Below the pieces are notes generated by a model. That model was not told where the DNA came from. It saw only the letters and a list, made by a program, of their open reading frames with translations, and made no database searches. Shown here piece after piece: positions 20,184 through 24,970 of a DNA stretch of 64,000 nucleotides. Each line of letters starts with the position of its first letter. Position 1 is the stretch's first letter. A program made the translations under genes and the position numbers. Source of the stretch: Marinicella litoralis (GTDB lineage: Bacteria > Pseudomonadota > Gammaproteobacteria > Xanthomonadales > Marinicellaceae); NCBI RefSeq assembly GCF_002591915.1, contig NZ_NIHB01000001.1, positions 535,805 through 599,804 on the forward strand. The letters are read 5' to 3'.

Positions 20184-21265
20184 TGTGGGGTGATTTTGAT
20201 GTTGTGCTGGGCCAACTCTGCAAAAATTTGATCAAACCATGTTTTATTTTGACCAATGAGTTCCGGTGGAATCACGCCGCAAGGCAGGTCATCATGAGAA
20301 AGTGCCAGCCGCACGCCAGCTGCACAAGTAAATCCAGTGGTGCGCGCCATTGAAGATATGTTGTTCTCGTGGTCGTAGTGATCAATCAATTGAAAAGTTT
20401 CTGCTGTGGCTTGGCCGTTTTTGATGCCTGTGGCAGAGATTTCCATCACCGTGAGGTCTGGTTCATTTTCAGCAAACTGCCATTGCTCAAGCAACACTTT
20501 GGCTGTGGCATCCCGGTGTTCTGCTTTAAAGAACCCCGCATCGATTAACTTTTGAATAAAGCCCGCGTGGCCATTGTAGCGAACTGTTTTTTCGGCCATG
20601 GTAGGGATGTCTACCGTTTGTAACAACGAACGTAATCCATCGGTATTAAAGGCTTCCATGTGACCGACACCTTTGAAGTACAGTGACTCAATTTCACTCA
20701 TGGCAGGTAAAATAATTTCTTCCCCCATTCTTTTCATCCGTGCAGGGCGGGTGTATTCCTCAATCACATCCAATGGGGCAAATGGGGCTTTGTATTCAAA
20801 TGGTTTTAATCGTTCAACTGGAACGCCACCCACTTTGCAAGCAAAGCTATCAACTTGGTCATACTGCGCCACAAAATGTCCAGCATATAAATTTGAAATA
20901 CCAGGGGCTAAACCAAAATCAACCAAGGCGGTGACACCATTGGTCTTGGCCAATTGATTGAGTGCCAAGGCATCTTCCGCAAAAAATGAAATATCCACGA
21001 TATTTTTTTTCAGTTCAATCAAAGCACGCAAGCGATCAAAGCCCAATAAACTGGGTAAAGCGCCAACCACTAAATCAAAGGGTTCGACCAAATCAGACAA
21101 CACCTGGTCATCACATGCATTGGCTGCAACCAATTGACAATGAGGGGATAAATGGCTCAAATGATTAATGCTCAAATCTGCCAAAGTCACTTCGTGATCG
21201 ACACTTAAATTCTTTGCAATCGCAGCGCCAATGCGACCGCCTCCCAATACCAATACTTTTTTCAT
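20180..21265 (-). CDS. Saccharopine dehydrogenase family protein
   Basis: 361 aa from ATG 21265, which overlaps the pgpA stop (TGATG). The N-terminal Rossmann motif VLVLGGGRIGAAIAKNL and the catalytic-domain segment DFGLAPGISNLYAGH match the saccharopine dehydrogenase/Lys9-like family. Such stand-alone bacterial members can act in lysine catabolism or carboxyspermidine-type chemistry, or have unknown roles. No lysine-ketoglutarate reductase or aminoadipate gene is nearby, so the substrate is open. An upstream in-frame extension lies inside pgpA and is rejected. Confidence 0.85.
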   Translation of the reverse strand: MKKVLVLGGGRIGAAIAKNLSVDHEVTLADLSINHLSHLSPHCQLVAANACDDQVLSDLVEPFDLVVGALPSLLGFDRLRALIELKKNIVDISFFAEDALALNQLAKTNGVTALVDFGLAPGISNLYAGHFVAQYDQVDSFACKVGGVPVERLKPFEYKAPFAPLDVIEEYTRPARMKRMGEEIILPAMSEIESLYFKGVGHMEAFNTDGLRSLLQTVDIPTMAEKTVRYNGHAGFIQKLIDAGFFKAEHRDATAKVLLEQWQFAENEPDLTVMEISATGIKNGQATAETFQLIDHYDHENNISSMARTTGFTCAAGVRLALSHDDLPCGVIPPELIGQNKTWFDQIFAELAQHNIKITPQ

Positions 21266-21750
21266 CAAACAAATCTCACTAAAATCATTAAAATTATCCA
21301 AGCAAATACCCCAGCTATCACGTCATCTATCATGATGCCAAATCCACCTTTTACTTTTTTATCCAGCCATTTTATCGGAAATGGCTTGAAGATATCAAAA
21401 AATCGAAACAACAAAAAACCTGTCAATAACCAAGGCCATTCATTGGGGACCAAGAATAAAGTAATCCACAATCCAACAAACTCATCCCAAACGATTCCAC
21501 CGTGGTCATGCACACCCAAATGGTGACTGGCACGTTCACAAAGATAGATCCCCAGAATAAATGCGATGACGGTCAATGCTAAATAGACAGTCCAAGGCAA
21601 TGGAGCCATCAGCCAATACAAGGGAATGGCCGCGAGGGTGCCAAATGTGCCTGGGGCAAATGGTGCCAGGCCGCTGCCAAAGCCAAAAGCCAAAAAACCA
21701 GAAGGGGTTTTCAGCGCGACGTGTTGGGTGGTTTTTCTGTCAATGCTCAT
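21265..21750 (-). CDS. pgpA: Phosphatidylglycerophosphatase A
   Basis: 161-aa inner-membrane enzyme that dephosphorylates phosphatidylglycerophosphate to phosphatidylglycerol. Motifs: FGSGLAPFAPGTFGTLAAIP, DEFVGLW, FRFFDIFKPFP and GFGIMIDDVIAG. It lies 5 bp behind thiL, the usual gammaproteobacterial nusB-thiL-pgpA order. Confidence 0.95.
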   Translation of the reverse strand: MSIDRKTTQHVALKTPSGFLAFGFGSGLAPFAPGTFGTLAAIPLYWLMAPLPWTVYLALTVIAFILGIYLCERASHHLGVHDHGGIVWDEFVGLWITLFLVPNEWPWLLTGFLLFRFFDIFKPFPIKWLDKKVKGGFGIMIDDVIAGVFAWIILMILVRFV

Positions 21751-21755
21751 GGTTG

Positions 21756-22655
21756 TTAAGTGAAGTGCTGATAGCCTTTAAAATTGGTTTCAATGGGTTG
21801 GTGATGATTGAGCACCATAACCCCTTGGCCAGCTATGATTTGACCGATGATATGACAATCCTCGGGCAGTTGGTCTTCGTCATCCATATTGATGGTGAAA
21901 CACAGTTGATAATCGTCACCGCCAGCCAGTACATATGACATCCAATCCGGGTGTTTTTTAACTGTTTCATTCACTGGAATTTGGCTCAGTTCAATCACTG
22001 CCGCCAGTTGGCTGGCGTGGCAAATATGCCCTAAATCAGCCAACAGACCATCAGACACATCAATCATGGCTGTGGCCATGTGTTTCACTTGTTCAGCGAC
22101 ATCCAAGCGGGGTTTGGGGCTGTGTAATTGCTCGTTACATGCTTTACTTTTTCTGGGATTTTTAAGTGCAAAGGCAGCTGAACCTAATTCTCCTGTGACC
22201 ACAATCAGGTCATCCATTTTAGCGCCATCCCTGCGCACCGCTTGGTCGGTTTCACCCATCACTGTAACGGTGATGGATAGTGGGCCTTGTGTGGTGTCAC
22301 CACCAATCAGTTGGGCTTGGTGTTGGCTCAGTAGCTTGGCAAAGCCTTGGGTGAAACCCTTCACCCATTTGTCATTGATTTTAGGTAAAGTTAAATTGAG
22401 CAATACCCATTTAGGTTTGGCAGCCATGGCAGCCATGTCACTGAAACTAACAGCCAAAGCTTTGTGTCCGATGGATTGTGCTGAATCTTTGGCTTTAAAG
22501 TGAATGCCTGAAACCAAAGTATCGGTTGAGACCACCAGCTGCTGAATATTCGCTGGATGTAATATGGCTGCATCATCACCGATACCCAATACAGTGCCAT
22601 CGGTTTCAGATGTGCACTGTTGTTGAATGTGTTGAATCAGGTCAAATTCTTTTAT
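21756..22655 (-). CDS. thiL: Thiamine-monophosphate kinase with an apparent ATA start
   Basis: ThiL makes thiamine diphosphate from thiamine monophosphate. The ATP/Mg site GIGDDAAIL, SGIHF and VSDGLLADLGHI are clear. The conserved N-terminal helix (KEFDLIQHIQQQC) is encoded upstream of the first TTG (22589), but the frame then meets a stop just before codons GTC ATA AAA. ATA (22655-22653) is exactly where an ATG overlapping the nusB stop would be expected; the sequence is ATAA instead of ATGA. A TTG start at 22589 would remove the helix; CTG at 22640 is another option. Coding from ATA gives 299 aa. Confidence 0.88.
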   Translation of the reverse strand: MKEFDLIQHIQQQCTSETDGTVLGIGDDAAILHPANIQQLVVSTDTLVSGIHFKAKDSAQSIGHKALAVSFSDMAAMAAKPKWVLLNLTLPKINDKWVKGFTQGFAKLLSQHQAQLIGGDTTQGPLSITVTVMGETDQAVRRDGAKMDDLIVVTGELGSAAFALKNPRKSKACNEQLHSPKPRLDVAEQVKHMATAMIDVSDGLLADLGHICHASQLAAVIELSQIPVNETVKKHPDWMSYVLAGGDDYQLCFTINMDDEDQLPEDCHIIGQIIAGQGVMVLNHHQPIETNFKGYQHFT

Positions 22656-23125
22656 GACTCACCTGTCGCGGCATTGATTTCGGCTTTTCTGGTACTTGCG
22701 GCCACTTGTGTTAATACACCGTTGACGAATGTGTGTCCCCCTTCTGCACCAAATTCAGTGGCCATTAAAATGGCTTCATTGATCACCACTTTGAACGGGG
22801 TTTCCATGTGGTTAAGCAACTCATAGGTGGCCATGGTCAAAACCGCATATTCAACGGCACCCAATGACTTTTTCTCCCTGCCTAAATGGGGATCTATGGT
22901 CGCTTCGATTTCAGTTCGATTGGCTTCAATATAGCGCAGGGCGCTTTTAAAAAACTCGGTATCCACTTTGTCGAAATCTTGTTCCTCAAGAAATTGCTCG
23001 ATGACAACCCTGGCTGTCATTTCGTTGTAGTGCATTTGATACAAAGCTTGAACCAAACGTTTTCTGGCTCGGTGCTTTCGAGCCAATGGCTCTGGTAATC
23101 GTTTATTTTTTTTGTGGTTTGTCAT
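22652..23125 (-). CDS. nusB: Transcription antitermination factor NusB
   Basis: 157 aa from ATG 23125, preceded by an AGGACAG ribosome-binding site. In-frame starts upstream (23155, 23230) run into glyA. The RNA-binding Arg-rich start (RKHRARKRLVQALYQM) and the C-terminal FVNGVL element are typical. It works with NusE (S10) at boxA in rRNA transcripts. The ribH gene commonly upstream is replaced here by glyA. Confidence 0.95.
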   Translation of the reverse strand: MTNHKKNKRLPEPLARKHRARKRLVQALYQMHYNEMTARVVIEQFLEEQDFDKVDTEFFKSALRYIEANRTEIEATIDPHLGREKKSLGAVEYAVLTMATYELLNHMETPFKVVINEAILMATEFGAEGGHTFVNGVLTQVAASTRKAEINAATGES

Positions 23126-23147
23126 TGACTGTCCTGGAGGTGTTCGT

Positions 23148-24407
23148 TTATCCATAAACCGGAAATTGCCGGCACATTGAGGCCACTTTGGCCTTGACTG
23201 ATTTAACAACTTCGTCATTTTCCATGTCATCTAGGATATCACATATCCAATGAGTCATTGCTGAAAACTCTTCATGACCAAAGCCTCTGGTGGTGCCTGC
23301 GGGTGTACCCAGTCGCAAGCCACTGGTAACAAAAGGTGATTTTGGATCATTGGGAACTGAATTTTTATTGACTGTGATGTGGGCTTCACCCAATCGAGCT
23401 TCAGCGTCTTTGCCCGTGATGTCTTTATCGATCAAGTCCAATAAAAACAGATGATTTTCGGTGCCACCAGAAACCACATTGTAGCCACGTTCAATAAACA
23501 CTTTGGCCATGACTTGTGCGTTGTCAACCACTTGTGCTTGGTAGGTTTTGAATTCAGGTTCCAAGGCTTCTTTAAAGGCAGTGGCTTTGGCAGCAATCAC
23601 ATGCATCAACGGGCCGCCTTGAATACCAGGAAAAACCAATGAATTGAGTTTTTTCTCTATTTCAGGATTGGCCTTGGCCAGGATGATACCGCCTCTGGGA
23701 CCACGCAATGTTTTGTGGGTGGTTGAAGTGGTCACGTCTGCGATGTTAACTGGGGATGGGTAAACATCAGCTGCCACCAAACCAGCCACATGGGCCATAT
23801 CAACCATAAAGTACGCGCCGATTTCATCAGCGATGTCTTTGAATTTTTGCCAATCTATGCGTTTGGAATAGGCTGAAAAGCCACCAATAATCAGTTTGGG
23901 TCTGTGTTCTAGCGCCATCGCCCGCACGTTGTCAAAATCAATTTCACCGGTGTCTTCCTTGATGCCATATTGAACTGCATTGAAAAGTTTACCTGACACA
24001 TTCACCTTGGCACCGTGGGTGAGGTGACCGCCATGCGCCAAAGACATACCTAAGATGGTATCCCCTGGTTGTAACAAGGCGAGAAATACAGCTTGATTGG
24101 CTTGAGAACCTGAATGAGGTTGGACATTGGCATAATCGGCATTAAACAATTTTTTGACCCGTTCAATGGCTAAATTTTCTGCGATGTCGACAAATTCACA
24201 TCCACCATAATAACGTTTGCCTGGGTAACCCTCTGCATATTTATTGGTCATTTGACTGCCCTGCGCTTCCATCACAGCCGGTGAACAATAGTTTTCAGAG
24301 GCAATCAACTCGATGTGATCTTCCTGGCGTTGATTTTCAGCCTCGATGGCGGCTTGTAATTCTGGATCCGTGTGAGCCAGGGTCAAAGATTTATCAAACA
24401 TAGTCAT
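23148..24407 (-). CDS. glyA: Serine hydroxymethyltransferase
   Basis: 419 aa. PLP enzyme that interconverts serine and glycine and charges tetrahydrofolate with one-carbon units. The PLP lysine is in [14 protein letters not shown], with the conserved ASENYCSP and HSGSQAN near the start. Starts at 24407 (MTMFDKSL) and 24401 (MFDKSL) are equivalent. It leads the run glyA-nusB-thiL-pgpA-SDH-mscS. A 21-bp palindrome sits just upstream. Confidence 0.97.
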
Positions 24408-24415
24408 TGATGGTG

Positions 24416-24436
24416 TGTAAAAAACGGTATTTTACA
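24416..24436. repeat. 21-bp palindrome upstream of glyA
   Basis: TGTAAAA and TTTTACA are perfect 7-bp inverted arms around a 7-bp centre, 9-29 bp upstream of the glyA ATG. On the minus strand one arm contains TAAAAT, which could serve as the -10 box. A dimeric repressor operator is plausible; it does not match the PurR or MetR consensus. Confidence 0.45.
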
Positions 24437-24523
24437 TGAGGAGACCACCGGATGGTTCAACAGTGAAGCAAAAAAAGACAAAAATCCTGATCTATTTACC
24501 TGTGGCTGGTCGACTGCAATGAT

Positions 24524-24970
24524 TCAAAACGGCTTGGCGATGACTAAATAGAGCACCAACAACAGCATCAAAGCGGGCACTTCGTTGAAAACTCGAAACC
24601 AAACATGGCCGCGATGTTCCTGATTTTGGGCGAAATTATAGTGAATTTTTATGCACCAAAAATGATAAAAGACCAATAAAAAGACCAGGGCAATTTTGGC
24701 CATAAACCAGCCTTGTTGGATGTAGGCTTTCCAACCACTGCCAGCAATGGAATAAACCAATAATGTGGCAGAGACCACGGTACCCCAAAAAGTGAAGCGC
24801 ATCATTTTTATTAACCTGATTTCCATACCCAGAAGCATCACTCGTTGAGCATCTTCTTTGGTTTGGGCGTGGTTGACATAGAGTCTTGGCAGGTAAAATA
24901 AACAGGCGAACCAACTGACAACAAAAAAAACATGAAAAGTTTTGATCCAAAGCATGACATTTAATCCCAT
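24524..24970 (-). CDS. hemJ: HemJ-type protoporphyrinogen oxidase
   Basis: 148-aa four-helix membrane protein of the HemJ (UPF0093) family, often annotated as CopD-like. Visible marks are KTFHVFFVVSWFACLFYLPRL split over helix 1 with its heme-ligand His, and the C-terminal FRVFNEVPALMLL. HemJ oxidises protoporphyrinogen IX to protoporphyrin IX using the respiratory chain. Its presence suggests this organism does not rely on HemG or HemY-type oxidases. A start at 24955 (MLWIKTFH) is also possible. Confidence 0.88.
   Translation of the reverse strand: MGLNVMLWIKTFHVFFVVSWFACLFYLPRLYVNHAQTKEDAQRVMLLGMEIRLIKMMRFTFWGTVVSATLLVYSIAGSGWKAYIQQGWFMAKIALVFLLVFYHFWCIKIHYNFAQNQEHRGHVWFRVFNEVPALMLLLVLYLVIAKPF

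Follow-up and report, generated by a model that had tools for sequence, protein, structure and literature searches.

Translation of thiL in Marinicella litoralis very probably initiates at an AUH codon, AUA in the window (the whole 64,000-nt stretch of DNA analysed here), and this start appears to be a trait of the genus. On the minus strand, the nusB-thiL junction reads ...GCGACAGGTGAGTCATAAAAGAATTTGACCTG..., where the nusB stop TAA (22654-22652) overlaps the thiL start as ATAA, with thiL in a different frame. In the thiL frame, the order is TGA (22661-22659), GTC, ATA (22655-22653) and then AAA GAA TTT GAC CTG ATT. No ATG, GTG or TTG occurs from the upstream stop to codon 23, the next one being the TTG at 22589, and the conserved thiL coding sequence begins directly after ATA (Table 1). 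This frame reading confirmed what the sequence-only reading had stated, namely that no canonical start lies upstream in frame and that the conserved N-terminus extends up to an ATA at the nusB stop.

When read from ATA, the protein scored 308.8 bits against TIGR01379 (cut-off 184.15), with residues 2-298 aligned to model positions 1-320; both the score and the nearly full-length alignment identify it as ThiL. It was the only match above this cut-off in the source genome. Additionally, ThiL chains with solved structures matched it.

Table 1 Features of thiL and its neighbours in the window
Feature	Position	Strand	Remark
thiL, thiamine-monophosphate kinase	21756..22655	-	299 codons from ATA plus stop; TIGR01379 match
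thiL start codon ATA (AUH class, predicted)	22653..22655	-	No canonical codon upstream in frame; of the 16 other thiL genes in the genus, 15 have ATC or ATT
Shine-Dalgarno sequence AGGTGA (predicted)	22659..22664	-	6 nt separate AGG from ATA
TGA stop in frame with thiL, shortly before its start codon	22659..22661	-	Reading of the frame
nusB	22652..23125	-	TIGR01951, 121.6 bits (cut-off 88.35)
TTG, thiL codon 23, first canonical codon inside the gene	22587..22589	-	Start of the mechanically listed ORF; unlikely start
pgpA-like gene, downstream of thiL	21265..21750	-	NF008288, 211.5 bits, slightly below the cut-off of 226

The thiL start codon across the genus Marinicella

A thiL gene above the TIGR01379 cut-off was found in 17 of the 18 genus genomes, that of the window included, and the eighteenth (G010, 81% complete) was without such a match. 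The locus L045 duplicates the record G016/L004, with no difference over the 3700 bases compared, and was counted once; its ThiL is 72% identical to that of the window, and within the genus identity to the window ThiL goes as low as 53%. The codon at the thiL start position was ATC in 11 genes, ATT in four, ATA in one (the window) and ATG in one (L004). The comparison with close relatives that had been proposed as a check on the ATA hence found ATH in 15 of the 16 other genes. The suggestion that a rare start codon is used fared well, as the best reading puts the start at 22655 and the relatives have ATH there too.

Canonical starts were absent upstream in frame, between the stop and the start position, in 11 of the 17 genes (ten with ATC, and the window). 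In the four ATT genomes (L012, L014, L016 and L017), the codon immediately preceding ATT is GTG, which shares bases with the nusB stop (GTGA), and these genes may start at GTG. A GTG also lies eight codons upstream of ATC in L018, TTG codons lie 5 and 10 codons before the ATG of L004, and L010 has a CTG three codons upstream of its start codon. The window and ten others of the 17 genes have no canonical codon able to start the conserved N-terminus; the four ATT genes and L018 are ambiguous in this respect owing to the upstream GTG, and L004 has ATG. Counted in this way, the non-canonical codon is kept as ATH in 16 of 17 genes, in 12 of 17 if the ATT clade uses GTG, and in 11 if L018 is also set aside. 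In L003, L008 and L018, ATC stands immediately before EF and is one codon closer to EFDLI than elsewhere. Because its position shifts by one codon in these genes, the start codon is not merely a conserved isoleucine of the protein.

In L011 and L013, an ATG in another reading frame (GATGCATC) overlaps the stretch that immediately precedes ATC; the frame it opens is only a few codons long. This ATG could compete for the same Shine-Dalgarno sequence.

The tree was built from NusB, ThiL without its first eight residues, PgpA and GlyA, and was rooted with three genes of another genus that covered just 25-32% of the columns. ATC was found in the basal clade (L018, L003 and L008) and in most inner clades, ATT formed one clade, and the ATA of the window adjoined two ATC species, L005 and L009 (support 90/88). 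The ATG of L004 was nested, with no resolved sister, in a group supported at 99/97. The simplest history would be that AUG was lost at or before the genus ancestor, followed by drift among the AUH codons and a single reversion to AUG. Because ATC spans the tree and the nearest relatives have ATC, the ATA of the window is most simply derived from ATC (C to A), not from ATG. The earlier idea of a recent G-to-A change from ATGA does not agree with this, since L005 and L009 carry ATC, which is also the simplest assignment for the genus ancestor. Overall, the comparison suggests that the non-canonical thiL start is real, old and genus-wide.

Starts outside the genus and controls within the genome

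Outside the genus, a canonical in-frame start lay upstream in 210 of 210 thiL loci parsed, a sample in which some loci were possibly counted twice, as the genome and contig sets may overlap. The 210 loci comprised 99 script-parsed loci (from genome contigs, the family and the order), 11 examined by eye (L033-L036, L051, L052, L062, L067, L075, L101 and L112), 60 order stretches and 40 class loci, 20 of the latter chosen for open frames short relative to the match. They were sampled by keeping 80 of 584 and by draws of 121 and 274 genomes, the latter among the matches listed, and 14 further loci were left out as unparsed (L131, L136, L140, L152, L154 and nine class loci). The canonical start lay within 12 codons of the conserved block in 98 of the script-parsed loci (at 14 codons in the remaining one), in 56 of the order stretches (at 17-24 codons in the other four) and in 40 of 40 class loci. 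In genus g3, which belongs to the same family, the thiL genes of L031, L032 and L036 begin with ATG.

In three loci from one family of the order (L239, L241 and L242), the canonical thiL start was found only 19-24 codons upstream, with none within 12 codons. These genes might have an N-terminal extension or another odd start.

Among 40 open frames of the window with conserved counterparts in two or more relatives, four, including thiL, were flagged as having no shared canonical start, under a flag limit that was tightened after a looser version had been seen. The looser version (41 frames) flagged one frame, which was not thiL, as it allowed shared starts far downstream, and a separate loose criterion flagged 10 of 50 window frames. 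Reading by eye showed that thiL alone of the four flagged frames is without a canonical codon before the conserved block; the other three have ATG. The infC gene was found in 15 of the 18 genus genomes (L044 and L155-L168) and starts with ATC in 15/15; thus, the method of reading starts recovers a known case.

The pcnB gene (L169-L185) was left out as a control because its 5' end is ambiguous. In the 8 of 17 5' ends viewed, some genes had ATG, others had ACG or ATA nearby, and most shared a TTG a few codons on, so pcnB is possibly a second weak start in the genus.

A variant initiator tRNA reading AUA was considered and rejected. An exact pattern for the initiator-type anticodon arm, with any first anticodon base, matched one site in the genome, and its anticodon is CAU; a more diverged tRNA would escape this pattern. 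RNA structure around the thiL start showed nothing unusual in the six sequences folded (of 17 genes; z-scores -0.74 to 1.26). Additionally, no Rfam element matched the window at gathering scores, and a consensus scan of 22400-24600 detected no promoter-like site near the nusB-thiL junction.

Shine-Dalgarno signal and a proposed mechanism

All 16 ATH genes carry a core (AGG, GGG, GGAG or GAGG) whose end lies 6-9 nt before the start codon, compared with 7.0% of random places in the window; the 6-9 nt range was chosen after the genes had been seen, and the related species counted are not independent. None of the three distinct AUG contexts (L004, L031/L032 and L036) has this core; L031 and L032 share 22 bases upstream and were treated as one context. 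For the predicted duplex with the 16S 3' end, the ATH genes gave -5.1 to -12.5 kcal/mol and the AUG genes -0.2 to -3.4 kcal/mol. Specifically, the value for the window was -7.9 kcal/mol, which 5.2% of random places reach, and L010 had a weak duplex of -5.1 kcal/mol, which 20.5% of random places reach. Gene by gene, these energies are modest.

In the mechanism that we propose, the AGGTGA Shine-Dalgarno sequence six bases upstream would position ribosomes on the AUA at 22655-22653, the ordinary initiator tRNA would read AUA, and the protein would begin with fMet-Lys-Glu-Phe. The sequences themselves show that a canonical start is lacking, that this lack is conserved, that selection sets in at the codon and where the Shine-Dalgarno sequence lies; the actual initiation at AUA and the use of the initiator tRNA are what we infer. 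The ancestral thiL start of the genus would have been AUC, which then would have drifted among AUC, AUA and perhaps AUU with the Shine-Dalgarno core kept. By analogy with infC, pcnB, ccpN and sigR, we further infer that the AUH start gives a low ThiL output that is held down by, and dependent on, initiation factor IF3. An AUH codon is not indispensable, because L004 has ATG. It seems rather unlikely that IF3, itself made from an AUC start, throttles the last step to thiamine pyrophosphate, with start codon and Shine-Dalgarno sequence co-evolved for a fixed low dose. If the IF3 reading were true, the condition of the initiation machinery would govern ThiL synthesis.

Thiamine pathway context

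Neither thiE nor TPK had a match in any of the 18 genus genomes, and a model of thiamine kinase, a possible supplier of thiamine phosphate, matched in 18/18 genomes, in none of them above its cut-off. Without thiE and TPK, no recognised route to thiamine pyrophosphate besides import would be left except ThiL, acting on salvaged thiamine phosphate; a low flux would allow a weak thiL start. However, genus g3 also showed no thiE match (0/11), yet its three thiL starts read are ATG, and the lack of thiE alone therefore does not explain the weak start.

Across the 33 family genomes, ThiL and TPK tend to substitute for one another. Seven genomes (G018, G019, G024 and G026-G029) had TPK without ThiL above its cut-off, and 23 (17 of the genus, G021-G023 and G030-G032) had ThiL above its cut-off without a TPK match. 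G020 carried TPK together with a sub-cut-off ThiL piece, and G010 and G025 had neither.

Alternative explanations

Single-base errors and mutations occur in draft genomes, and the ATA might on that ground be an assembly error or a recent change from ATG to ATA. ATH is also found in 15 of 16 other thiL genes of the genus, and on this comparison both were rejected, leaving the idea with next to no probability. Initiation inside the gene, at the CTG of the conserved helix or at TTG 22589, had been offered by the sequence-only reading as the other option, and we consider it very improbable. TTG 22589 is indeed the first canonical codon in the window thiL, but a canonical codon is aligned with it in just 3 of 7 relatives compared, and the leucine codon of EFDL differs by species (CTG, TTG, TTA, CTC or CTT). 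Moreover, the first internal ATG, GTG or TTG is at codon 46 in L003, codon 67 in L006 and codon 47 in L010, in each case past the GIGDD motif, which an internal start would remove in these three genomes. For pairs of genus genes, pN/pS was 0.30 over ten codons starting at EF and 0.76 over the nine that lead up to GIGDD; it was 0.50 over 25 codons beginning with GIGDD and 0.88 over the five that precede the start codon, the last being a control that in some species partly overlaps nusB in the other frame. The EFDLI block, which an internal start would bypass, thus has the lowest value of the four stretches measured. On these grounds, a start at an internal CTG or TTG was rejected.

The AUH start may also be real but neutral, with ThiL serving only in low-flux salvage and the weak start having drifted in without any regulation, which we regard as quite possible, if somewhat short of probable. 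The unmatched thiE and TPK, which would leave ThiL with only salvaged thiamine phosphate, are consistent with this, as are the variation of the third base among C, T and A and the ATG of L004. However, a change from AUC to AUG needs one base, yet 16 of 17 genes stay ATH across the full range of ThiL identity in the genus; the presence of the Shine-Dalgarno core in all ATH genes and in none of the AUG contexts looks like a maintained output level; and genus g3 uses ATG although it likewise has no thiE match. It is slightly less likely, though still plausible, that ThiL is made mainly by ribosomes that restart on the spot after finishing nusB and that proximity lets a poor thiL start codon work. 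The ATAA overlap in the window would fit such a restart, and in 16 of 16 ATH genes the nusB stop ends somewhere from 19 nt inside the thiL start to 34 nt ahead of it, compared with 91 nt before it in L004. On the other hand, distance and order vary freely between species, and thiL has retained a Shine-Dalgarno core of its own. In any case, coupling would aid a weak start rather than replace it, and it is compatible with initiation at the AUH codon, which remains our preferred reading.

The 91-nt nusB-thiL gap of L004 contains a CACCCT-loop-GGGGTG hairpin with a T-rich stretch after it, and thiL there lacks a preceding Shine-Dalgarno core.

Comparison with known weak starts

Only a small number of genes known to use non-canonical starts have been studied in detail, and the prediction of starts relies on ATG, GTG and TTG (PMC5472188); consequently, a default annotation would truncate this ThiL at TTG 22589. 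Among the papers listed from the open-licence literature on thiL or thiamine monophosphate kinase starts, no report of an AUH start of thiL was found, nor was a report on start codons in Marinicella found in the open-licence literature. For Campylobacter jejuni thiL, an out-of-frame small ORF inside the gene is described in PMC11955535. A metabolic gene with a genus-wide weak start, together with one ATG species without the Shine-Dalgarno core, provides a ready comparison for asking why weak starts persist.

Conserved non-canonical AUH starts are already known from infC and other genes, and thiL in Marinicella would join them. Such starts are described as weak and modulated by IF3 (PMC13009471, PMC5472188). 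In E. coli, infC and pcnB are named as AUH-start genes (PMC9410913, PMC1780047). Like thiL here, infC (AUU, AUC or AUA) has an AUH start after a good Shine-Dalgarno sequence that is kept among relatives, whereas infC closes a feedback loop on IF3 and thiL encodes a metabolic enzyme without such a direct loop. E. coli pcnB, with its AUU start (Binns and Masters 2002, as cited in PMC13009471, PMC9410913 and PMC1780047), is a different gene but resembles thiL in having an AUH start without being an initiation factor gene, and it is described as limited by that start.

In S. aureus, infC (AUA), ccpN (AUA) and cvfC1 (AUU) are reported to have extended Shine-Dalgarno sequences, and reporters of cvfC1, ccpN and citZ gave an output strongly below that of their AUG versions (PMC13009471). 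As described there, ccpN and cvfC1 share with thiL a conserved AUH start with a Shine-Dalgarno sequence, which is strong or extended in S. aureus, although these are other genes in another phylum, in which the reduction was measured, while a reduction for thiL would follow by analogy. The sigR gene of Streptomyces starts with GTC in 32 of 34 species and with GTT in two, has an extensive RBS and is repressed by IF3 (PMC5472188). According to that account, its non-canonical start is kept genus-wide as in thiL, but the codon is GTC rather than AUH, and the product is a sigma factor balanced against an anti-sigma factor. Finally, the full length of lepA in Borrelia burgdorferi and Bacillus licheniformis is restored only if an AUU start is assumed (PMC1780047); as far as that source shows, these are two single cases, whereas the start of thiL has been compared genus-wide.
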